The position numbers and the translations under genes are program-made. Shown piece by piece: positions 1 to 12,334 of a stretch of DNA of 25,732 nucleotides (its first letter is position 1; each line of letters begins with the position of its first letter). Source of the stretch: a virus; IMG/VR virus record IMGVR_UViG_3300030085_001886, positions 1 through 25,732 of that record, one strand, 5' to 3'. The notes under the pieces are model-generated. The model saw nothing but the letters and a program-made list of their open reading frames with translations, searched no databases and had not been told where the DNA came from.

Positions 1-1635
1 AATTTGCCTTATCTGCGACATGCGTTCCTGTAGTTGATCTAAAGGAACGTCTATTTTCATAACACCGCCTTCAGGAAATTTATAAGTATTATCCAAAATT
101 TTACCAGGTCTGACTAAAGTAAACTCTCCGCCCTCAGCCATGGCTTTCATAAGACTACCTGAATTAGATGCCAAAAGAGCAAAATCAGCTAACTTATCAC
201 CTGTTGCATCAATCTTAACATCTGCTAATCCTTTTAACGCATCAGTAAATCTTTTTATCGCATCGCCCATCTTGTCTAGACTTGTTATTTGTGACGTATC
301 TAAATCTTTTAGTGGGGCTAGTGAATCAACTATAGCCTGAAATGTATTTTGTGTAGAAGTCTTACCATCACCTTCAAAATCTTTTCCAGTTAAAAATGAC
401 CAAAGCTTTTTGGCAGCTTTAATTGTACCCTCAATTGTATTGAACGCTAAATTGCCTGCCAACATAGATATTATCGCAGGACCTAAACCTGCGAGTGCAG
501 TGACCTTTGTAAGTAAACCTGGGTCAATATCGTTTAGTTGTCTTAAACCACCGCCGATATTAGTCATCATTGTTTTAAAGCCTGAACCATCGATTCCAAC
601 AAATGCAGCTAAGTCACCAATGCCTGCAATACCAGCAAAGAATGCACCAATACCAACGCCTATAGCTGCCATACCTACAGCAGCCTTACCGGTAACTGTT
701 GGTGGGAACAAAGCAGCTAGTGCGCCACCCGCGCCCATAGCTGCACCAACTGCAGCTAAATCTCTACCAGAAAAAGCTCCTAATCCTTCGGCAACATTCG
801 TCATCATGTTCTTTAGTCTTGTGCCGTCAGTGTCCATATAAGACATTGCTTTGTCTGAAGCTGCAAGACCAGCAAAGAAGCCACCTATTCCTAAGCCTAT
901 CGCAGTCAGACCAACTGCAGCGACACCTGCAACTTTTAGTCCTCCTACTGCAGCAAAAAGCGCTGAACCAGAAATAAGTCCACCGAGAACTAAGAGTTCT
1001 CTATCACCAAAAGCTTTCAGGCCCTCAGCAACATTTTTCATCATGTTCTTTATTTTATTACCGTCAGCATCTAAGTATTTCATGCCAGCGTCACCAGCAG
1101 CTAAGCCAGCAAAAAATCCTCCAATACCTATACCAATGGCACCTAGACCTACAACTATGTCACCACCGCCTAGTCCTGGCATGGCAACAAATAGTGCAGA
1201 ACCGGCGAGTAGTGCTCCAAGTGCTAAGAGCTCTCTATCACCGAAAGCTTTTAGACCATCAGCTAGGTTAATCATTAATTTTTTAAGATTATCACCCGAT
1301 CCAAATTTATTCATGATAGCGTCTGCACCGGCCAATCCAGTAAAGAATGCTCCAAGGCCTGCACCTACTGCACCAAGACCTATGCCTCCTCCAGCCAACA
1401 TGCCACCTAAGCCACCGAAGTTCATAGTGTTACCACTTGCAACACTCGTATTTTTAGCAGGTGCAGAAGCTTTAGCCTTCTGCTTGCTTTCTCTTTTATC
1501 CTCGAGATCGTCAAGGTTTTTACCTAAGAAGCGTTTAGTCAAAAGCACGTTCAGCGCGTGAAGTTCTTCCTTCATCGCTACTGTATCTTCGTTATTAGCG
1601 TTTAGTGTATCAATTACATCTCTTAGTTCTGCCAT
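1..1635 (-). CDS. Probable tail tape-measure protein (partial, C-terminus beyond the left edge)
   Basis: The reading frame is open from an ATG at 1635 to base 1, so 545 residues are visible and no stop is reached. A purine-rich ribosome site (GGAAG, AAGAAG) precedes the ATG. After a charged N-terminus of about 60 residues (MAELRDVIDTLNANNED, then Lys/Ala-rich), the protein is Gly/Ala-rich and hydrophobic. It carries four repeats of 77-79 residues beginning at residues 95, 172, 251 and 330. Each starts with G[AG]FF.G[LI]A and continues with a KNMM.N.AEGL helix. Repeated, partly membrane-like segments suit a tape measure, which sets tail length and leaves the tube during DNA ejection. Position is the main support: it directly follows the gp26/gp51-like two-frame chaperone unit and a tube protein, as lambda H follows V and G/GT. 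I cannot show homology to T4 gp29 itself. Another internal tail or membrane-active structural protein is the alternative. Confidence 0.6.
   Translation of the reverse strand, partial: MAELRDVIDTLNANNEDTVAMKEELHALNVLLTKRFLGKNLDDLEDKRESKQKAKASAPAKNTSVASGNTMNFGGLGGMLAGGGIGLGAVGAGLGAFFTGLAGADAIMNKFGSGDNLKKLMINLADGLKAFGDRELLALGALLAGSALFVAMPGLGGGDIVVGLGAIGIGIGGFFAGLAAGDAGMKYLDADGNKIKNMMKNVAEGLKAFGDRELLVLGGLISGSALFAAVGGLKVAGVAAVGLTAIGLGIGGFFAGLAASDKAMSYMDTDGTRLKNMMTNVAEGLGAFSGRDLAAVGAAMGAGGALAALFPPTVTGKAAVGMAAIGVGIGAFFAGIAGIGDLAAFVGIDGSGFKTMMTNIGGGLRQLNDIDPGLLTKVTALAGLGPAIISMLAGNLAFNTIEGTIKAAKKLWSFLTGKDFEGDGKTSTQNTFQAIVDSLAPLKDLDTSQITSLDKMGDAIKRFTDALKGLADVKIDATGDKLADFALLASNSGSLMKAMAEGGEFTLVRPGKILDNTYKFPEGGVMKIDVPLDQLQERMSQIRQI
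430..1353 (-). repeat. Four tandem 77-79-residue protein repeats in the putative tape measure
   Basis: Unit starts, read on the minus strand, are at 1353, 1122, 885 and 648, giving periods of 231, 237 and 237 bases. Shared landmarks are G[AG]FFAGLA at the start, K[NK][LM]M.N.A[ED]GL about 24 residues in, AFGDRELL.LG in the first two units, and a hydrophobic Gly/Ile run at the end. The fourth unit is the most diverged. Identity is clear at protein level and moderate at DNA level, so these look like old duplications under selection. Confidence 0.85.
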
Positions 1636-1641
1636 AACTTC

Positions 1642-1797
1642 TTATCTTCCTTGATTATACTTCTGTTCTTCTTCTTTTATAAAATCAATAAGCATACTTA
1701 CATAAACTTCTTTTTCCCAAGGTATCATCATGTCTATCTCATTAAGTGAATATTTATGATGTTGCATAAGATCAAAGTTTGTTTTATAGTGCACCAT
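1642..1797 (-). CDS. gp51-like short frame, probably the -1 frameshift extension of gp26
   Basis: This frame of 51 residues runs from an ATG at 1797 to a TAA at 1644-1642. It includes the blocks HYKTNFDLMQHHKYSLNEID and MMIPWEKEVYVSMLIDFIKE. In the same frame it stays open a further nine codons upstream, to the slippery site at the end of gp26. No Shine-Dalgarno sequence precedes the ATG at 1797, unlike most neighbours, which argues against independent initiation. T4 has gene 51 immediately after gene 26, and gp51 is known as a baseplate-hub assembly factor. The IPWE-type motif and Glu/Lys-rich end resemble the second-frame domain of tail-assembly chaperones. I infer that it is made mainly as a gp26-gp51 fusion of about 295 residues, loading the tape measure encoded next, seven bases downstream. 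Confidence 0.75.
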   Translation of the reverse strand: MVHYKTNFDLMQHHKYSLNEIDMMIPWEKEVYVSMLIDFIKEEEQKYNQGR

Positions 1798-1819
1798 CAG
1801 ATTCGAATGAGATAGACAT
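1730..1819 (-). promoter_or_regulatory. Inverted repeat, candidate frameshift-stimulating RNA stem
   Basis: On the minus strand ATGTCTATCTCATT (1819-1806) is perfectly complementary to AATGAGATAGACAT (1743-1730), making a 14-bp stem around a 62-base loop. Within the loop three further 4-bp pairings line up in order (GAAT/ATTC, GATG/CATC, TGCA/TGCA), so a long interrupted hairpin is possible. The stem starts four bases 3' of the slippery heptamer, where a frameshift stimulator belongs. Confidence 0.7.
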
Positions 1820-1820
1820 A

Positions 1821-2528
1821 TTAGAAAAAACTTTGCATGCCCTCCAATGTAATTTCATTATCTTTACCACATGATTCACATTTAAAACTTACTTTATGAC
1901 GCAGTGTAGGAATGTTTTCCATAAACTCACGTATCTTACCAAACTGTTCAGAACTCATCGATTCTATAAATTCTTCAAACTCTTTGTAGTTTACTTCAGA
2001 CATATCAATTCTTTCGTCTGCAGTAACGACCGCAGCGATCGATTCATATATCAGACCAAAGATTCTATCCATAGCACTATCACCGGTCACTTTTTCATTC
2101 GATGCAATATCTAAATAAGTAGGCTGTTTCATTTCAACAGATACTTTGTCACTTAGCTTTACATTCTTAGGTAATGGATTACCGTCGATTTTTATATCTT
2201 CTAAGTTAATAGCCGTTTCATTCTCATGTTCACAGTGTTTACAAATTAAATTCACATTTGTGTTTTCACCAATTGATTTAGATCGTATCTTTATAAACAA
2301 GTATTCAACATCATATGATGTCAAAGACTTAGGATCTACGTTATCGTATACGCATGATACTACTGTGTCTAAAATAGATCCTGCAATTTGCTTTGGATCT
2401 TGTGATTCCATAGCAATCAGAAGAATCTTTTCTTCTTTGACCACAAATGGTCTGAATGTAATTTCATTTTGTGTTGATGGTATTGTTGCCTGATACTTAG
2501 GCATTTCATTCAATTTTGGCAGTGCCAT
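1821..2528 (-). CDS. 26: T4 gp26-like baseplate hub / tail assembly protein
   Basis: This 235-residue protein begins MALPKLNEMPKYQATIPST and has the charged-hydrophobic pattern VVKEEKILLIAMES typical of the T4 gp26 (T4_baseplate) family. Two CxxC pairs, Cys96/Cys99 and Cys217/Cys220, could form a zinc knuckle. In T4, gp26 is classed as a baseplate-hub assembly component, and it is thought to act like the tail-assembly chaperones of other phages. The start is preceded by AGGAG. The gene follows the tube-like protein after nine bases and ends GMQSFF at a slippery TTTTTTC, so a share of ribosomes probably continues into the gp51-like frame. Family assignment is fairly secure; the chaperone role is inferred from context. 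Confidence 0.85.
   Translation of the reverse strand: MALPKLNEMPKYQATIPSTQNEITFRPFVVKEEKILLIAMESQDPKQIAGSILDTVVSCVYDNVDPKSLTSYDVEYLFIKIRSKSIGENTNVNLICKHCEHENETAINLEDIKIDGNPLPKNVKLSDKVSVEMKQPTYLDIASNEKVTGDSAMDRIFGLIYESIAAVVTADERIDMSEVNYKEFEEFIESMSSEQFGKIREFMENIPTLRHKVSFKCESCGKDNEITLEGMQSFF
1824..1830 (-). promoter_or_regulatory. Slippery heptamer for programmed -1 frameshifting (T TTT TTC)
   Basis: The last sense codons of gp26 read AGT TTT TTC and then TAA. This gives the heptamer T TTT TTC in the correct phase for tandem -1 slippage of two Phe tRNAs. After slippage the next codons are CTA, ATA and TGT, and the frame stays open for 60 codons to 1642. The slip is directly before the zero-frame stop, as is common for such sites, and a 14-bp stem can form four bases downstream. 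Confidence 0.78.
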
Positions 2529-2537
2529 TATTTACTC

Positions 2538-3230
2538 CTATAAAAAGCTTGTCAAATCACCTAGTCCGCCGGTTATACCTGCAGATGCTGAGATCCATCC
2601 TTGTCCACTAGAAACTCTTTCCCAATTTGTATAAGAAAGTTGTACTGTAGCTTGCACTAATCCGTCTAGATCGTTAGTTAGTTCGATTGCTTGTATTGTT
2701 GTTGGGTATGCGTCTATTAATCTTACAGAATAAACAGAACCGGTGCCAAGGCCTATGTTTACTCTAATTGGTCCAGAACCAATTCCAATATTCTTAATTG
2801 GTTTTCTTAATTGATGTATCTTCACATCTTTAGCATAATCTTTCTTGTAGTTAGCGATACCTCCGGCCTCATTAAGAGTTTGTTTTCTCCACTCATCAAA
2901 GTATTTCCTTGTTCCATAATCATTGAGTAAGTAAAAAGAAAGTGTTACATCATCTACTGCGTAGCCATACGCTACTTTTTGGAACTCCATACCTATACGT
3001 CTTTCAGTAGAAAGTATTTGTTTACCAGGTAACGTAGCTGCAGCACAAAGAATATTTAAGTCACCACCTCCAGATCCTAATCCTACTCCACTTGTTAATA
3101 ACGTAGTCAGCTGACCCAAAAATCCAGTCGTACCAGAAAAAGTTGTAGGTAATTCTACTAGAAATTGATTTGAACGTGCAAACCCAAGTTTAGACGATGC
3201 GAGTGATTTAAGTTGATCTATACTACTCAT
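2538..3230 (-). CDS. Tail-tube-fold protein (gp19/gp54-like)
   Basis: The protein has 230 residues. Its start (GFARSNQFLVELPTTF), the segment CAAATLPGKQ, the block VDDVTLSFYLLNDYGTRKYF and the late TIQAIELTNDLDGLVQATVQ match the tail-tube fold shared by T4 gp19, gp54 and the tube domain of gp48. At 230 residues it is longer than gp19 (163) and shorter than gp54 (320), so it may be the tube initiator gp54 or a second tube protein. It overlaps the stop of the upstream gene by four bases and has its own AAGGAA ribosome site. Lying directly before the gp26/gp51 chaperone pair, it matches the major tube position of the lambda-type tail module. The main gp19 tube gene may lie elsewhere with the sheath gene. 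Confidence 0.75.
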   Translation of the reverse strand: MSSIDQLKSLASSKLGFARSNQFLVELPTTFSGTTGFLGQLTTLLTSGVGLGSGGGDLNILCAAATLPGKQILSTERRIGMEFQKVAYGYAVDDVTLSFYLLNDYGTRKYFDEWRKQTLNEAGGIANYKKDYAKDVKIHQLRKPIKNIGIGSGPIRVNIGLGTGSVYSVRLIDAYPTTIQAIELTNDLDGLVQATVQLSYTNWERVSSGQGWISASAGITGGLGDLTSFL

Positions 3231-3817
3231 ATTGCTTTCCTTGAATCTGTATATACAGTGCTCTTATTTGCTTTCTCAAACTGTGCTGTTGGTAAGAATG
3301 TAGCAATCTCCCATTCAGGTGCCTGCACTCTGGCAAGTCTTGATCTTACATGTCGTGTAAGATAGTGTTTTAAACACGGCTTAAAAAATTTCATTTTACT
3401 GGATGATTGTAAAAGCTTTAAAGTTACATCAAATTTTGTTGTTTCATCATACTTATCATTGTTTGTTATATCTAATAAAGCATCTAAAAATTTTGCCCTT
3501 AAAACGTTTGGCAAATAATGTAAGTTCAATCCATAAAATCCACCAGGCGCCGGTTTAACTATTATAGCTAAGGGAAACCTGTCGTAGTAAGGTAATGTAT
3601 CTTTATGTTTTGGATCATAGAAGAACATATTCATAGAGCCAATCAATGGATTCTGCCTGTTTACGAGTTTTACTTGATCATCTTTTAATAGTTCTTGTCT
3701 ATTGATTCTACCCATCGCTTGTGCTTTTTTACGAAACCAATTTTGTGCTTCTTTTGTACGTGGGTTTATACCAGCACGAAAAGCTTCAAACTCTAACTTT
3801 TGAAATAGATTAGACAT
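3227..3817 (-). CDS. Conserved T4-like phage structural protein, function not assigned
   Basis: The protein has 196 residues and no signal peptide or membrane segment. Recognisable stretches are NPLIGSMNMFFYDPKHKDTL, YYDRFPLAIIVKP, FYGLNLHYLP and KPCLKHYLTRHVRSRLAR. I recall this pattern from marine T4-like myoviruses, where it is a small virion-associated or packaging-related protein, but I cannot name its T4 counterpart with confidence. It sits between gp4 and the tube-like gene, so a role in head completion, neck or tail assembly is plausible. Its start codon lies exactly five bases after a late-promoter octamer and has no Shine-Dalgarno sequence. Its last four bases overlap the next gene. 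Confidence 0.7.
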   Translation of the reverse strand: MSNLFQKLEFEAFRAGINPRTKEAQNWFRKKAQAMGRINRQELLKDDQVKLVNRQNPLIGSMNMFFYDPKHKDTLPYYDRFPLAIIVKPAPGGFYGLNLHYLPNVLRAKFLDALLDITNNDKYDETTKFDVTLKLLQSSSKMKFFKPCLKHYLTRHVRSRLARVQAPEWEIATFLPTAQFEKANKSTVYTDSRKAI

Positions 3818-5646: not shown

Positions 5647-6401
5647 TGGACTACTTCAGACACTTTCCTAAAATACCATATGTGTTTGGCAACTTAAGTG
5701 AAATAGGTGGCCAGAGAGTTACATCAGAAATATTTCAAAACATTTCTGCTAATATCGATATATTTGAATCATTAAAAAATAATTCTTCATTCTATACTCT
5801 ATACAATGTGCAAGATGGTGATAGGCCTGATCAAACTTCTTCTTACTTATATGGTGTTCCAACTTATCATTGGACATTTGCTTTAATGAATGATAAGATA
5901 AAAGAGCGAGGTTGGCCTCTATCAAACAGTGAAATAGAAAAAAAAGTAAAAGTCGATTTTCCACATACTTTTATCAACACAAGAAACTCATTAACTGGTG
6001 TCATGTTGCCAGGAGAAACTGTGGAAGGTTTACAATCCGGTGCTAGAGGAATTGTGCTACGTAGACACTTAGATCTTGGCAATATCATCGTAGATAAAAA
6101 GACAACTGCAAATTTTATAGCAGGGGAAGTAGTACGTAACGTAACACAGATTGCAGGTGTGACAGGTGAGGTCATAATTAATTCAACAGGTGACGAGCAT
6201 TTAGCGTCACATCACTATATAGATGGTGATGGAGAAAGAGTTGATATAGATCCAGAATCTGGACCTGGTGCACTTCTTACGGAAGTAACTCATATTGATA
6301 GATACTTCGAAGATAATGAAGACTTAAGATTAATTAGAGTTATAAGACAAGAAAACATAGAAGAAATTAACGCAATATTCAAGCAAGCAATTGATACCTA
6401 A
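5646..6401 (+). CDS. 53: gp53-like baseplate wedge protein
   Basis: The protein has 251 residues against 196 in T4. The N-terminal half has the gp53 pattern: YFRHFPKIPYVFG, a middle YTLYNVQDGDRPDQTSSYLY, then YHWTFALMNDKIKERGWPLS, the conserved strip of the wedge protein that links wedges in the dome. After residue 121 comes a beta-rich insert (GETVEGLQSGARG ... AGEVVRN) that T4 gp53 lacks and that resembles segments in gp8 and the DUF4815-type protein downstream. The C-terminus (YFEDNEDLRLIRVIRQENIE) is typical of the family. Translation is coupled to gp48 and gp27 by TAATG overlaps. Confidence 0.88.
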   Translation: MDYFRHFPKIPYVFGNLSEIGGQRVTSEIFQNISANIDIFESLKNNSSFYTLYNVQDGDRPDQTSSYLYGVPTYHWTFALMNDKIKERGWPLSNSEIEKKVKVDFPHTFINTRNSLTGVMLPGETVEGLQSGARGIVLRRHLDLGNIIVDKKTTANFIAGEVVRNVTQIAGVTGEVIINSTGDEHLASHHYIDGDGERVDIDPESGPGALLTEVTHIDRYFEDNEDLRLIRVIRQENIEEINAIFKQAIDT

Positions 6402-7741
6402 TGTCTGAAAGTCAAGAAAGAGTTACTAGGGGTTTAGAATTAGAATCAGTTATTCTAAATTCTAATACCTTTGTCAATCCAGCAGGGATTAACATTTACG
6501 GGTTAGTAACAGATATAGAAATATTTGAGCACATAGATTTGCCTTATATTACAGGACAGGTCGCATTTATAGATACTGAAAGATTATATGATAGACTAGG
6601 TTTTGATGGAGGTGATTCAGTAACGATAGCTCTTAAACAAACAAAATCAAGTAAAAGAATAGAAAAAACATTTATCATCGATAGAGTTATCAGTACAGTT
6701 AAAGCTAATGAAACAACTGAATTAATTACTTTTCATATGATTGAAGACATTGCATTTATTTCTAGATTTATAAATGTCAATAAAAGCTACAGTGGTTCAC
6801 CTGTAGATATTATAGAAAATATTTCAAAAGACTATCTGCAAAAAGAAATAATTAACACAGGTGATGTATATCAAAATAAATTAAAAGTAATAGTTCCAAA
6901 CATGCAACCTCTAGATGCTATGTGTTGGATTAAAAACAGAATGACAACCCGCGATGGTATACCTTATTATTTGTTTTCAGTTTTTGATGGTCCGGCTTTA
7001 AACTTAATAAGTTTAGATGATATGCTAAATGAACGGCCTTTTAATACTAAGGCTCCTTTTATACACGGTCTTCATAATCTATACACAGAAATAGAAGGTG
7101 GTGTATTCAGAAACTATCCAATTATGAAATATGAACATAAAAATGTAGATGATTTGTTTGGTTTAGTTGAAAAAGGATTAATTAGTTCTACGTATAGTTA
7201 TTATGATTCTCACGCTGCTAAACCAACAAAGCAGTTTTTAAATGCGGAAGAACCTTTGAGTACACTTTTACCGGCAAAGTCTGATAGAAGACACAATATG
7301 CCTTTTAATTTAGAAATTGATGGTGATAGAATAAATGAAAAAAATGCAAGAAAAATTTATCAGCTAAGTCAAAGTGGAGCTTACGAAGACGGCACCAACA
7401 GATTTAGAAGTTATGATCAAGAACCTGGTAAAGGACATATACAAAAAGCATATAATAGATCAATGAAGCATATACTTTTAAAAGAAACAATGCGTGTACG
7501 TGTAAGCGGTGCAGGATTTTTAGACGGCACTAATCACAGGTCAGTTGGAAGCATTGTTAGATTAGGATTCAAATCAAATAAACCTAATGATGCTGGACTA
7601 CGTTTTGATTTGAAAAAGTCTGGTGATTACTTAATCTACGCTTGTAAACATTCAATACGCGCAGAGAAGTATGATATAGAACTAGAATGTGTAAAGAACG
7701 CATCTTTCAAAAATGATTCTTTTTTGAGGTCTGGTCAATGA
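6401..7741 (+). CDS. 27: gp27-like baseplate central hub protein
   Basis: The protein has 446 residues (T4 gp27 has 391). It opens with a beta-barrel-like segment (NIYGLVTDIEIFEHIDLPYI, then TGQVAFIDTERLYDRLGFDG). TTELITFHMIEDIAFISRF and SPVDIIENISKDYL follow, as in gp27 and VgrG-type hubs. NMQPLDAMCWIKNRMTTRDG corresponds to the conserved hub helix. gp27 forms the trimeric ring between the tube and the gp5 puncturing device. It lies directly before the gp5-like gene and shares an ATGA overlap with it, which suits stoichiometric expression of the hub pair. The family is secure; the domain borders are approximate. Confidence 0.88.
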   Translation: MSESQERVTRGLELESVILNSNTFVNPAGINIYGLVTDIEIFEHIDLPYITGQVAFIDTERLYDRLGFDGGDSVTIALKQTKSSKRIEKTFIIDRVISTVKANETTELITFHMIEDIAFISRFINVNKSYSGSPVDIIENISKDYLQKEIINTGDVYQNKLKVIVPNMQPLDAMCWIKNRMTTRDGIPYYLFSVFDGPALNLISLDDMLNERPFNTKAPFIHGLHNLYTEIEGGVFRNYPIMKYEHKNVDDLFGLVEKGLISSTYSYYDSHAAKPTKQFLNAEEPLSTLLPAKSDRRHNMPFNLEIDGDRINEKNARKIYQLSQSGAYEDGTNRFRSYDQEPGKGHIQKAYNRSMKHILLKETMRVRVSGAGFLDGTNHRSVGSIVRLGFKSNKPNDAGLRFDLKKSGDYLIYACKHSIRAEKYDIELECVKNASFKNDSFLRSGQ

Positions 7742-8643
7742 TACCTAATACGCATAAAGATTACTATGGTGATGAAACGCGATGGTTTATTGGCACAGTA
7801 AAAAGTTTAAATGATCCACTAGAACTTGGTAGAGTAAAAGTTAGAATATTTGGTGTGCATAGTGAAAATTCAACTGACGTACCTGACGGTGATTTGCCTT
7901 GGGCACAAGTTTTAATACCTGTAACTGAAGGTGGATCATCAGGCATAGGAACAAACATAGGTATAAAGCCACAAGCACAGGTTTGGGGTATTTTTTTAGA
8001 TGGCAAAAATTCACAATTACCTTTAATTCTTGGTTCTGTACCAAGGTACGAAAGACCAATTAATAGTAGTTACTTTGTAGATTACGCTAGCATACCAGAT
8101 GAATTACAACACTCGTCACATCTTGACAATGTCGATTTAACAATACCAAAGTCAGCGAAAGAAACAGATGAAGAGTTTTTAAGTGGGTCTAGCAATATAG
8201 AAAAAGCATTCAATTTCTTTTTAACACAAGAGGGCGGAGGATTTACAGCTGAACAAGCTTGTGGAATACTTGGTAACTTCTACATAGAATCAGGTGCACA
8301 AATTACTGGTGACTTAAATACTGTAGCACAGTCTGCACCACCAGAAAGATCATTTGGTATTGCACAGTGGAACTCAGCTCCTAGTGTTGCAAGATACCAA
8401 AATTTAGTACAGTTCGCTGGTGATAGAAATTTAAGATGGCAAAGTTTATATGCACAACTTTTATTCACAATCAAAGAATTAAATGACCATAAAGAGTATT
8501 ATAGGTATAATGAGTTAAAAAGAGCAAAGACACCTGAAGAAGCTTGCCTTATTTTTGAAGATAGATTTGAAAATCCAAAAATTAAAAAACAGCAAAAAAG
8601 GATTAATGCTGCTGATGAAATTTTTAGAAAGATGACAAGATAA
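7738..8643 (+). CDS. 5: gp5-like hub protein: OB-fold plus phage tail lysozyme, no needle domain
   Basis: Residues 1-110 form the gp5 N-terminal OB-fold: WFIGTVKSLNDPLELGRVKV, RIFGVHSE, LPWAQVLIPVTEGG, and GIFLDGKNSQLPLILGSVPR. From about residue 155 a tail-lysozyme domain follows (Phage_lysozyme2-like). It has GILGNFYIESG with the probable catalytic Glu184, then SFGIAQWN. This is a different lysozyme family from the T4L-type domain of T4 gp5. The protein ends at residue 301 with no octapeptide beta-helix; that part is encoded in the gene at 10349. The enzyme would open peptidoglycan during tube penetration. ATGA and TAATG overlaps join it to its neighbours. Confidence 0.88.
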   Translation: MIPNTHKDYYGDETRWFIGTVKSLNDPLELGRVKVRIFGVHSENSTDVPDGDLPWAQVLIPVTEGGSSGIGTNIGIKPQAQVWGIFLDGKNSQLPLILGSVPRYERPINSSYFVDYASIPDELQHSSHLDNVDLTIPKSAKETDEEFLSGSSNIEKAFNFFLTQEGGGFTAEQACGILGNFYIESGAQITGDLNTVAQSAPPERSFGIAQWNSAPSVARYQNLVQFAGDRNLRWQSLYAQLLFTIKELNDHKEYYRYNELKRAKTPEEACLIFEDRFENPKIKKQQKRINAADEIFRKMTR

Positions 8644-10352
8644 TGGCTGACGGAATCACAAGACCAAGTTTACAAAACACTTTAAATCAAATCGAACAAG
8701 CTTCTGGTTCTCTTGATGCTGAAGAAAAAGCACGTCAGAAAAAAGCAATAAAATTATTCAGTGATTTTAATAGTGGTTCAAGTGACTTAGGAACTATGAT
8801 AGGTGGTTTTAAAACTTTGGCACAAGAAGCTAAAGCTGCAGATGCTAAAAAGAAAGGTAAGCCAAACCCTATACCAGCAAAAGCAACTGAAACTCTTGGT
8901 ACAACATCTAATACTAAAACTCCTTCATCTATTAACAAAACCGCGATTGACGCTCTTACTGGTAAAACATCAAAAGAAAACAATGTTGTACATCCTGCGA
9001 TAACAGGTGCTAATCCCAAAGCTATTCGTGCCACATTAAAAGAAGGATTTGAATTAAATAGAGATGAAATAGATGCTAATGTGAAACTAGCATCAAAGAA
9101 AGCTGCAGAGGATCCAAATTTTCAAGAAGCAGCTCGCAAGTTTGGTTTTGACCCAGATGGAGTAACAAATCTTATAGAGACTTTACCTGCACAGGCAGAT
9201 CAGTTACTAGACCCATCAAATGATCCAGTTGATGAGATTGTAATTGATCAGAAGCTAACGTCTAGTATACAAATGGATCAACTAGATAATCCACTAGGTT
9301 CTTTCAAATTAAAGTTGCCAGTTGATAATTTTCCAATTGACACACCTACTGCACCTGACGCAAGTTTAATAACAAAAGAGCTAGGTAAGAATAGAGGATT
9401 AAATATAAATGATCTCGTAGAACGTAATCCATTTGGTAATATGGGAGTCGACTTTGGAAATGTTTTAGGTAATATCGGTAGTAAATCTATGGGTGGCCAA
9501 ACATCTAAGGAAATAGGACAGATAATACCTGAACTCGGGCAAGCGCCAGACGTTGAGTTCCCAACAAACATTATAAATGAAAAAGGATTTACAGATCTAT
9601 TCAGTTCATTAGAAAAAGGTAATTTAAAAATTAACGCCGAACCTACAACACCGATTGAAAAAATAGGTGTAACATCAGGTCAGGTTGGCGATTTTATTTA
9701 CACACGTGTGACTAGTGCACAAGAATTAGAGCTTGAATTAAAAACAATTAAAAGGAAAATTACTAACGTTAACATAGGTTGGACAGGTAGTGCGTCAGAC
9801 GGAAGATTTACAAGTGCAAAATCTTATAATGATGGTATAGCTACAGCTAAGAGAATACAGTTTCAAGTTCTTAATATAGGGACTGACAATATACCTGAAA
9901 GAGATCGTGCTGCATGGATGCACTATTTTGTAGGTAAGAATGGTACGATCGAAAGAGTAATGCCGCTTGAAACTTTTCCTAATACAAAAAGTTATGCTGC
10001 AGACAAAGATGCTGCAGGTCGATTGCTCAGTGCATTCGGTGATATAAACTTTCCACCGGTTGAAGTTGATTTAGAATTTGCAGAGCAACAATTGAAAGAT
10101 GGAATTAGTATTATAATAGACGCTGGCCACGCAGTTTCTGAAATTGAAAAAACTCAACAAACTTACAGCAAAAAATCAATTACTGACGAAGCTTGGAAAA
10201 GCTTAGATACTATGCTAAGTACAATCGTAAAAGTATTTCCTTATATAGAAGGTTATTCACATGGTGATGATTTATTAAATGATTTAGCTTTAGGTGTAGG
10301 TTTTGATGTTGGTGATTATTTGAAAAGATATAGCGAGGATGAAGACGGATGA
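8643..10352 (+). CDS. Baseplate-associated protein with degenerate T7-lysozyme-like amidase domain
   Basis: This 569-residue protein has a long Lys/Ala- and Asp/Asn-rich, probably extended N-terminal region (to about residue 340). A C-terminal domain follows that reads like Amidase_2. WMHYFVGKNGTIERV (His427) parallels YHFVVKRDGTVEAG of T7 lysozyme, and the ending VGFDVGDYL parallels the family's CPSFDVARWL. The first zinc-ligand motif (HCSAT in T7) appears as GWTGS around Trp380, and the Cys ligand is lost. One candidate ligand, His540 in YSHGDD, remains. I infer a peptidoglycan-binding or purely structural pseudoenzyme. The gene lies between the two halves of the split gp5 and is tied to both neighbours by overlaps, so it is probably a hub or needle component. 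The family parallel was made by eye and is moderately sure. Confidence 0.6.
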   Translation: MADGITRPSLQNTLNQIEQASGSLDAEEKARQKKAIKLFSDFNSGSSDLGTMIGGFKTLAQEAKAADAKKKGKPNPIPAKATETLGTTSNTKTPSSINKTAIDALTGKTSKENNVVHPAITGANPKAIRATLKEGFELNRDEIDANVKLASKKAAEDPNFQEAARKFGFDPDGVTNLIETLPAQADQLLDPSNDPVDEIVIDQKLTSSIQMDQLDNPLGSFKLKLPVDNFPIDTPTAPDASLITKELGKNRGLNINDLVERNPFGNMGVDFGNVLGNIGSKSMGGQTSKEIGQIIPELGQAPDVEFPTNIINEKGFTDLFSSLEKGNLKINAEPTTPIEKIGVTSGQVGDFIYTRVTSAQELELELKTIKRKITNVNIGWTGSASDGRFTSAKSYNDGIATAKRIQFQVLNIGTDNIPERDRAAWMHYFVGKNGTIERVMPLETFPNTKSYAADKDAAGRLLSAFGDINFPPVEVDLEFAEQQLKDGISIIIDAGHAVSEIEKTQQTYSKKSITDEAWKSLDTMLSTIVKVFPYIEGYSHGDDLLNDLALGVGFDVGDYLKRYSEDEDG

Positions 10353-12334
10353 GTATTAGTGATAAACAACTCAAGGCAATGAAAATAACTGAAAAGTTAG
10401 AAAAAAATCCTGATGGGTTTGCTGACAATTCAGATACGTATCCATTCAGACAATATACTGGTCGACAGTCTACAAACCTTGAAGCACGTGGTATAGAAGA
10501 AAATACGCTGCCGTACGGAGGTGGCACTATAGGAACTAACCTTGAGTTTAAAGATTTCGCATCTTCAGAGTATCCATACAACCAAGTTCGTAGAACAGTG
10601 TCAGGTCATGTACAAGAGTATGATGATACACCGGGGCGTGAACGTATACTTTTCAAACATCGAAAAGGTACCGGTATTGAGATGCAACCTGATGGTACGA
10701 TACTTATTTACAGTACAAAGAATACTGTGCGTATTGGTGCAGGCGATGAAAAGATTATCATTGAAGGTGACGGTGATATAACTTACCATGGCAACGTAAA
10801 GATGAGAGTTGATGGCGATTTCGATTTAAGTGTAGGTGGAAGTTATAACGTTGATGTGTTTGGTGATCACGAAGAAGATATAAAAGGTGGTTACAGACAA
10901 GACATCGGTAAGAACGTGCAATCTTTAGTTGGTGGTAACTATTATAGACAGGTAATTAAAAGCACTACTAACTTGACACATGGTGGTGATAATACATTTA
11001 TCAAAGGTGCAGCTTCTACGATGTATGGGTCTACTACCGAGTTTTTATCAAAAGGTATTATGACACATACTTCTGAAGCTGAAGCAGTACTATCTGCACC
11101 TAGTATTAATATTGGTGCTAATGATTTGACAGCTATTGGTGCAACAGGTACAATGGGTGGCGATGGAATGGTAATATACGCTAACACTACTCACAGTGAT
11201 CGTGTAAATTCTACTTCTATGCATGCCACAACATTTCATGGTGACTTAAATGGTGTAGCTGATAAAGCAGATGAGGCAAACAAAGCAGGAACTGCAGCAT
11301 TAGGCGCAGCCGGATCTGGTGGAACACCTACAGTAACGACAGCAACTAATAAAGAAACTGCTGAACCTACATCTTCTATACTTACTTCTTATCTAGGTGA
11401 GTCAGAATTCGCTGTCAGGACTGTGACAATTGACCAAGGTAATGTACTATTCAATCAGGTAAATAGGAATGCAGACTACGAGGGTGTATCAGACAGGACA
11501 CTTAGTACTACAGAAGCCAGGTCAAAACTAAGAGATCCTTTGAATCAAAAGAAAACAAAGTTTGTTGGTACACTCATAGCTGAAGATACGATATCAGCTA
11601 CATTTTCAAATAGTGTACCACCTGGTGTTGATAGAGTTATCTCTAATGAAGCAACACCAAGACGTGTAAGATCTAGGAGTGTATTAGGTAAAGTTGTTGG
11701 TGCTGAAGCAAAAAGATTTCAAGGAAGTGTTATCAATGCTGAGATAGAACACGTACCTCACCCAAAGTATAAGCCTGAGAATCAAGAAAATATTACATCA
11801 AGAACAGAATTAGACCATGGTATTACGATTGCTAAGTTCTTAGGTGGATACGGAGATTCAATTACATTCGATCACGTTACAAAACTAGAAGACCGTGTTA
11901 CTATTGCACGTAATTTATATATGCATGGACAGGTATTGAAATCAATTATGATAGATGATGATGAGTACGATGAGTATCGACTGGTTGTTGCAGAAGGTAT
12001 ATACAGAGCCGGGCCAAATGAAACAATGACCGAGGGTGGAATAAATGATTTGAAATCTAAAGGTAGATGTGTTGTATATGAATTGAGAAATAGAAAAGGT
12101 GAGATAGACAAAAAGAAAACTTACGACCTTGCAGTGTGGTGGAAAGATTCTTTACAATTTGAAAAAATGATATTAAGTTATGATACGTATAATGTAGGTG
12201 GTAGTCTTACTGCGCAAATCATACTTATTATGCCAGAAATGCCTTCAACATACATTACAAAATCAACTAACGAAATAGAAACTCGCTTTAACAACTATGT
12301 ACAAAGTACAAACGAATTAGTAGAAGTGGTATAA
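10349..12334 (+). CDS. Membrane-puncturing needle protein, gp5 C-terminal beta-helix type
   Basis: The protein has 661 residues. From residue 154 it shows the octapeptide periodicity of the T4 gp5 triple-stranded beta-helix: VDGDFDLS, VGGSYNVD, VFGDHEED, IKGGYRQD, IGKNVQSL, VGGNYYRQ and so on to about residue 209, fading after. Upstream, YNQVRRTVSGHVQEYDDTPG and GTGIEMQPDGTILIYSTK match the short barrel before the needle in gp5/VgrG-like spikes. After a low-complexity linker (ADKADEANKAGTAALGAAG, near 305-325) a C-terminal half of about 320 residues follows that I do not assign. Its block KKTYDLAVWWKDSL and ILSYDTYN recur, as I recall, in marine T4-like phages. The protein would trimerise under gp27/gp5 as the spike. 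The stop overlaps a late promoter for gp25. Confidence 0.8.
   Translation: MSISDKQLKAMKITEKLEKNPDGFADNSDTYPFRQYTGRQSTNLEARGIEENTLPYGGGTIGTNLEFKDFASSEYPYNQVRRTVSGHVQEYDDTPGRERILFKHRKGTGIEMQPDGTILIYSTKNTVRIGAGDEKIIIEGDGDITYHGNVKMRVDGDFDLSVGGSYNVDVFGDHEEDIKGGYRQDIGKNVQSLVGGNYYRQVIKSTTNLTHGGDNTFIKGAASTMYGSTTEFLSKGIMTHTSEAEAVLSAPSINIGANDLTAIGATGTMGGDGMVIYANTTHSDRVNSTSMHATTFHGDLNGVADKADEANKAGTAALGAAGSGGTPTVTTATNKETAEPTSSILTSYLGESEFAVRTVTIDQGNVLFNQVNRNADYEGVSDRTLSTTEARSKLRDPLNQKKTKFVGTLIAEDTISATFSNSVPPGVDRVISNEATPRRVRSRSVLGKVVGAEAKRFQGSVINAEIEHVPHPKYKPENQENITSRTELDHGITIAKFLGGYGDSITFDHVTKLEDRVTIARNLYMHGQVLKSIMIDDDEYDEYRLVVAEGIYRAGPNETMTEGGINDLKSKGRCVVYELRNRKGEIDKKKTYDLAVWWKDSLQFEKMILSYDTYNVGGSLTAQIILIMPEMPSTYITKSTNEIETRFNNYVQSTNELVEVV

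Follow-up and report, generated by a model that had tools for sequence, protein, structure and literature searches.

The window, that is, the whole analysed stretch of 25,732 nucleotides, is a 25.7 kb IMG/VR virus contig representing a fragment of a genome. It carries a gene of the gp26 type (Table 1), which profile searches assign to PF12322 with an E-value of 4.2e-62 (210 bits against a curated cut-off of 24.5) and to PHROG_150 with an E-value of 5.1e-62. The 3' end of this gene reads ...TTG GAG GGC ATG CAA AGT TTT TTC TAA. From the heptamer T TTT TTC that abuts the stop codon, the -1 frame runs for 60 codons, ending at position 1642, and is translated as LICLSHSNLMVHYKTNFDLMQHHKYSLNEIDMMIPWEKEVYVSMLIDFIKEEEQKYNQGR up to its own stop. 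The segment of this translation past the ATG at 1797 matches PHROG_634, the gp51 family (E 3.5e-22), and also positions 244-276 of PHROG_150, a profile of which gp26 itself covers positions 5-232; since the tail matches PHROG_150 beyond the end of gp26, this family already includes proteins with both parts joined. The preliminary description of this DNA had proposed a programmed -1 frameshift between gp26 and a gp51-like frame; upon re-reading of the sequence, its coordinates, the heptamer and its phase, as well as the open -1 frame of 60 codons, were all found to be correct.

Table 1. Features of the gp26 locus in the window and predicted peptides of its products
Feature	Position	Strand	Basis
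Long downstream ORF, cut by the record end; putative tape measure gene	1..1635	(-)	Position
-1 frame extension (TAC-C, gp51-type tail), 60 codons and stop	1642..1824	(-)	PHROG_634, open frame, pN/pS
First ATG of the -1 frame, without Shine-Dalgarno sequence	1795..1797	(-)	Anti-SD duplex +0.1 kcal/mol
Zero-frame stop TAA, predicted end of the short product	1821-1823	(-)	Sequence
Slippery heptamer T TTT TTC, in phase, abutting the stop	1824..1830	(-)	Sequence, conservation in 211/221 loci
Shine-Dalgarno-like GGAGGG, 9 nt upstream of the heptamer	1840..1845 (approximate)	(-)	Sequence, anti-SD duplex
gp26-type gene (short tail assembly chaperone, TAC-N), 235 aa	1824..2528	(-)	PF12322, PHROG_150, AlphaFold2 model
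ORF of the gp26 gene including the stop	2528-1821	(-)	
Upstream tail tube-like protein	2538..3230	(-)	PHROG_45 tail tube, 5.9e-31
Predicted tryptic peptide of the short form, DNEITLEGMQSFF			
Predicted tryptic junction peptide of the fusion, DNEITLEGMQSFFLICLSHSNLMVHYK			

The order of genes around gp26 is, as had been claimed, similar to the V-G-T-H order of lambda: a tube-like gene is followed by gp26, the -1 tail and a long tape-measure-like ORF. A tail tube gene is annotated upstream of gp26 also in phiM12, C48C1, QD01 and K491. The downstream ORF, truncated in the window, showed no match to Pfam or PHROG families and is considered a tape measure gene by its position; nearly all relatives have a single long ORF (480-760 aa) at this place, and some of these ORFs weakly match tape measure families (3.5e-8 in L101 and 3.6e-7 in L155). 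In the Pfam and PHROG searches, the window showed no match to the lambda-type chaperone families, and the gp26 profile did not match the sequences of solved structures, the resemblance being confined to the fold. Specifically, in an AlphaFold2 model of gp26 (pLDDT 92), the best structural neighbours of the N-domain (residues about 1-96) are 3fgx (Z 7.8), the HK97 tail assembly chaperone 2ob9 (Z 7.8) and YqbN 3klu (Z 6.8), followed by a PICI protein (Z 5.1), with clearly unrelated chains appearing from Z 3.6. The modelled fold is thus suggestive of a tail assembly chaperone; given that the Z-scores are below 8 and that a Foldseek search with the model yielded an E-value of 0.7, the match is to be taken as a hint, not a proof. 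As a separate feature, gp26 contains two CxxC pairs (C96/C99 and C217/C220) that are nearly invariant in the clade of the window, P-SSM2 and phiM12 being among the relatives that lack them; the pairs suggest a zinc ribbon.

For comparison, 221 gp26 loci were collected from IMG/VR and from named phages. In 211 of these loci, gp26 has an in-phase T_TTT_TTN close to its 3' end, separated from the stop by 0-24 nt, and both the heptamer and the open -1 frame are kept even at 25-40% identity of gp26. In some loci, the stop is shifted downstream by 3 to 9 nt (occasionally by up to 24), with the heptamer staying put. At least 50 open -1 codons are present in 206 of the 211 loci; of the other five, at least L092 and L102 end at a contig edge. 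The carriers of the heptamer include P-SSM2, S-PM2, S-CRM01, C48C1 and Melnitz-3 of the Kyanoviridae, the Emdodecavirus phiM12, P10VF, phiM9 and Atu_ph04 of the Pootjesviridae, the Menderavirus BUCT608, the Chakrabartyvirus pf16, Aeh1 and QD01 of the Straboviridae, Acinetobacter phage SH-Ab 15599 and Nitratidesulfovibrio phage SRB7757. Hence the alignment of gp26-gp51 junctions, which the preliminary description had suggested as a check, came out in favour of its proposal, and the opposite pattern, no slippery run together with a separate ATG for gp51, was confined to three loci of the Ackermannviridae type and, in a different guise, to the T4 group.

The choice of codons within the heptamer was analysed in the 211 heptamer-bearing sequences, grouped into 81 clusters at 75% identity. 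The Phe codon at the slip is TTT in all 81 clusters, as compared to 45-88% TTT at seven further conserved Phe columns located outside the heptamer, and the codon preceding the slip codon invariably (81/81) ends in T, which puts this column at the top of 102 comparable ones. Relative to local codon usage, the nominal log10 P is about -16 for the slip TTT and about -18 for the preceding T, values that overstate independence because the clusters share ancestry and were chosen for T6N, ten loci having been removed. The second codon of the heptamer tolerates any base in its third position (TTC, TTT, TTG and TTA all occur), and in phiM9 and P10VF the Phe is replaced by Leu encoded as TTG, so that T_TTT_TTG preserves the slippery pattern in spite of the changed residue. 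A part of the T run is explained by the protein itself, since the FF pair near the C-terminus of gp26 is conserved at the protein level. Overall, codon choice appears to provide very strong evidence that the heptamer is kept as such.

The -1 frame of the relatives shows pN/pS values of 0.08-0.20. Upstream of the ATG, the ratio is 0.12-0.20 in the -1 frame versus more than 1.4 in control frames; for codons 4-9 past the slip, which precede the ATG of the window, it is 0.12 versus 1.4-2.9 in the other frames. Judging by these ratios, the -1 frame is under purifying selection upstream of the ATG. This region is of importance when considering the possibility that the gp51 tail is translated separately, as a small protein with a start of its own, be it ATG 1797 or an ATG overlapping the stop, by reinitiation after termination of gp26. 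Indeed, an ATG overlaps the gp26 stop, and the tail is annotated as a separate gene, in QD01, K491, P10VF, phiM9, S-CRM01 and BUCT608, and the Ackermannviridae-type K475, K357 and Ds16CZ have such an overlapping ATG and no heptamer. In the window, however, the ATG is located 24 nt beyond the stop, lacks a Shine-Dalgarno sequence and is preceded by a conserved LSH segment. The preliminary description correctly noted that this ATG has no ribosome-binding site (the best upstream anti-SD pairing is +0.1 kcal/mol) but erred in treating it as the only internal ATG: a GTG follows in frame one codon past 1797 and an ATG ten codons past it, these codons being located within the conserved domain or at its margin. 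ATG 1797 is probably not a functional start. Moreover, upstream of the conserved core, the -1 frame is devoid of start codons (ATG, GTG or TTG) in 39 of the 81 clusters, contains GTG or TTG only in 14 and includes an ATG in 28, and the T run is kept even where an overlapping ATG is present. Translation of the -1 frame before any ATG is strongly supported by these comparisons, and it seems quite unlikely that the tail is made from a separate start instead; in several lineages, free gp51 could arise as well because the ATG overlaps the gp26 stop there.

Another reality check concerns the frequency of such sites. The main ORFs of the window (~8,471 codons) contain just three in-phase T_TTT_TTN, and among the 42 in-phase X_XXY_YYZ sites of any kind in the window, only that of gp26 and one other have an open -1 frame longer than 33 codons. 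The gp26 heptamer with its open -1 frame exceeds chance. The other site, a T_TTT_TTG at codon 440 of the gp27-like ORF 6401-7741 (+), some seven codons before its end, served as a negative control: its -1 frame merely enters the next ordinary gene (gp5-like), and a gp27-gp5 fusion at this place was rejected, the heptamer being absent from all distinct relatives tested and, probably, accidental. Such runs, then, do arise by chance, and the FF pair of gp26 is conserved as protein, so one might envisage that the FF codons simply make the T run and that a gp51 gene, degraded or independent, occupies the -1 frame. This view is contradicted by the 211 of 221 loci, by the codon choice statistics and by the purifying selection, and it appears extremely improbable.

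Next to the gp27-like ORF, the gp5-type hub protein seems to be split over three ORFs of the (+) strand, namely, 7738-8643 (301 aa, with an OB domain and Phage_lysozyme2), 8643-10352 (a 569-aa protein without a family match) and 10349-12334 (661 aa, a separate gp5-type beta-helix part matching the gp5 profile at 327-618). The gp27-like gene of another contig, L226 (IMG/VR 3300020378_000517), is 100% identical to that of the window, and this contig apparently stems from the same virus.

In the window, GGAGGG occupies positions -15 to -10 relative to the heptamer; its anti-SD duplex has an energy of -9.8 kcal/mol, the best such pairing among all in-phase stretches of gp26. A GG is present at -11/-10 in nearly all clusters. 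The Gly of this element is conserved as protein; the Glu codon before it is GAG in 27 of 41 cases versus 11.1 expected (P 4e-8), this column ranking first among the 21 conserved Glu columns that were tabulated. Frameshifting in E. coli dnaX is stimulated by a Shine-Dalgarno-like element, and the 9-nt spacer between this element and the slip site in gp26 resembles the spacing in dnaX. Going by this conservation, GGAGGG is a probable frameshift stimulator. No significant RNA structure was detected around or downstream of the slip site of the window (z +0.48 and -0.59 in two computations). Over the clusters, downstream structure has a mean z of -0.94, with 22% of the values below -2; as a general stimulator it was rejected, these values leaving at most a lineage-specific role. 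An apparent hairpin, CGCAGGAG...CTCCTGCG, is located just past the gp26 stop at 3187 in SH-Ab 15599 (L039), where it possibly acts as a lineage-specific downstream stimulator. A fusion could, in principle, also be produced by transcriptional slippage, since RNA polymerase is capable of slipping on runs of six or seven T and the fusion protein would be identical; it is, however, highly unlikely that this happens instead of ribosomal slippage, considering that the run does not exceed T6-T7 and maintains its codon phase and that the fixed phase and the Shine-Dalgarno-like element at dnaX-like spacing point to the ribosome.

The observed conservation of the heptamer, the coding -1 frame, the homology and the gene order argue, with a probability of about 0.93, for a tail assembly chaperone pair of the lambda G/GT type in which the fusion is made by -1 ribosomal frameshifting. 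Most ribosomes would read gp26 and stop at TAA, yielding the short form of 235 aa, and a minority, probably held by pairing of the 16S rRNA with GGAGGG 9 nt upstream, would slip by -1 on T TTT TTC and translate a further 60 codons, so that gp26 and gp51 are fused in a product of 295 aa. If lambda is taken as a guide, the tape measure protein would be coated by the short form, the fusion would recruit tail tube subunits, and both forms of the chaperone would leave before completion of the tail.

In T4, gp26 and gp51 are encoded by two divergently oriented paralogous genes without a slippery run, whereas the window contains one gene with a heptamer. Residues 2-200 of the T4-type gp51 form a gp26-family domain (PF12322, 4.8e-55, as tested with the near-identical RB18 copy), and its C-terminus is the same tail as that of the window's -1 frame (98-99% probability in profile comparisons); T4 gp26 has neither a slippery run nor a tail. 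Since gp51 consists of a gp26-like domain and the tail, T4 gp26 corresponds to the short form and T4 gp51 to the long form. The suggested equivalence of the -1 frame and T4 gp51 holds inasmuch as the tails are homologous, but the match is to only the last ~50 residues of gp51. Similarly, the idea that genes 26 and 51 make up one two-product unit in this lineage is supported by the relatives, with the amendment that T4 gp51 itself is already a gp26 paralogue fused to the tail. A second gene of the T4 type, with a gp26-like domain and a tail, was not encountered in the 25.7 kb fragment, where the -1 frame holds the tail only and extends without a stop over just 10 codons upstream of the gp26 stop. 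In an unrooted tree, all six gp26 and all six gp51 N-domains of the T4 group fall on one side (100/97), all the frameshift phages fall on the other, and the three Ackermannviridae-type loci without the heptamer nest among the latter. This topology fits a single duplication in the T4 group that replaced the frameshift, a direction that we infer from a tree with long branches and no root. Tentatively, and with some doubt, one might suppose that the frameshifting of the family is set by the conserved Shine-Dalgarno-like element and that three products, the short chaperone, the fusion and a free tail, are made where an ATG overlaps the gp26 stop (QD01, phiM9, S-CRM01). If true, the T4 duplication and the separate start of the Ackermannviridae would be alternative replacements of an ancestral frameshift.

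With lambda G/GT, the locus shares a short product and a -1 frameshifted long product encoded between the tube and tape measure genes. The lambda slippery site is G_GGA_AAG, different from the T_TTT_TTC of the window, where, in addition, the slip occurs directly at the stop. As to T4-like phages, the abstract of a study by Vladimirov and colleagues reportedly names T4 genes 26 and 51 and is said to describe frameshifting as retained by several groups of these phages. Their TAC-N genes have been reported to contain poly-T signals for -1 frameshifting (Vladimirov, Gautam and Davidson 2022, Virology 566:9-15, as cited in PMC12846349), and some T4-like phages possess a short TAC gene together with a fused long one (PRFect, PMC10885494, citing Vladimirov et al. 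2022). As relayed by these citing papers, TAC-N/TAC-NC are the same gp26-family genes with the same poly-T -1 signals, the window representing an uncharacterised marine lineage; because both the frameshift and the short/long relation in T4 are, by these accounts, already published, the proposal made for this locus is right but not new. A 2016 review considers G-T frameshifting to be conserved 'except T4' (PMC5009743). In the TAC of phage Adele (Vandenendeviridae/Andersonviridae, PMC12846349), a -1 frameshift takes place at a conserved GTTTTT near the 3' end of TAC-N, a likeness in motif and position found in phage families different from that of the window. In the annotation of Acinetobacter phage Kimel, gp26 and gp51 are tape measure protein assembly chaperones. 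The Shine-Dalgarno-like element and the quantitative tests of codon choice and selection may add to the published work.

The comparative data strongly support the view that most T4-like phages, including the abundant marine ones, express gp26/gp51 as one frameshifted unit, the two-gene solution of T4 being the exception. This entails a systematic annotation problem: the tail is either listed as a gp51 gene of its own, frequently with an arbitrarily placed start, or overlooked altogether, and none of the annotation records examined contains a fusion CDS. In the record of C48C1, 'gp51' starts about 25 codons late, inside the domain. In Aeromonas phage Aeh1 (L046), the gp51-homologous -1 tail at 3211-3387 is unannotated, the record having no gene there, and the -1 tail of SH-Ab 15599 is unannotated as well.
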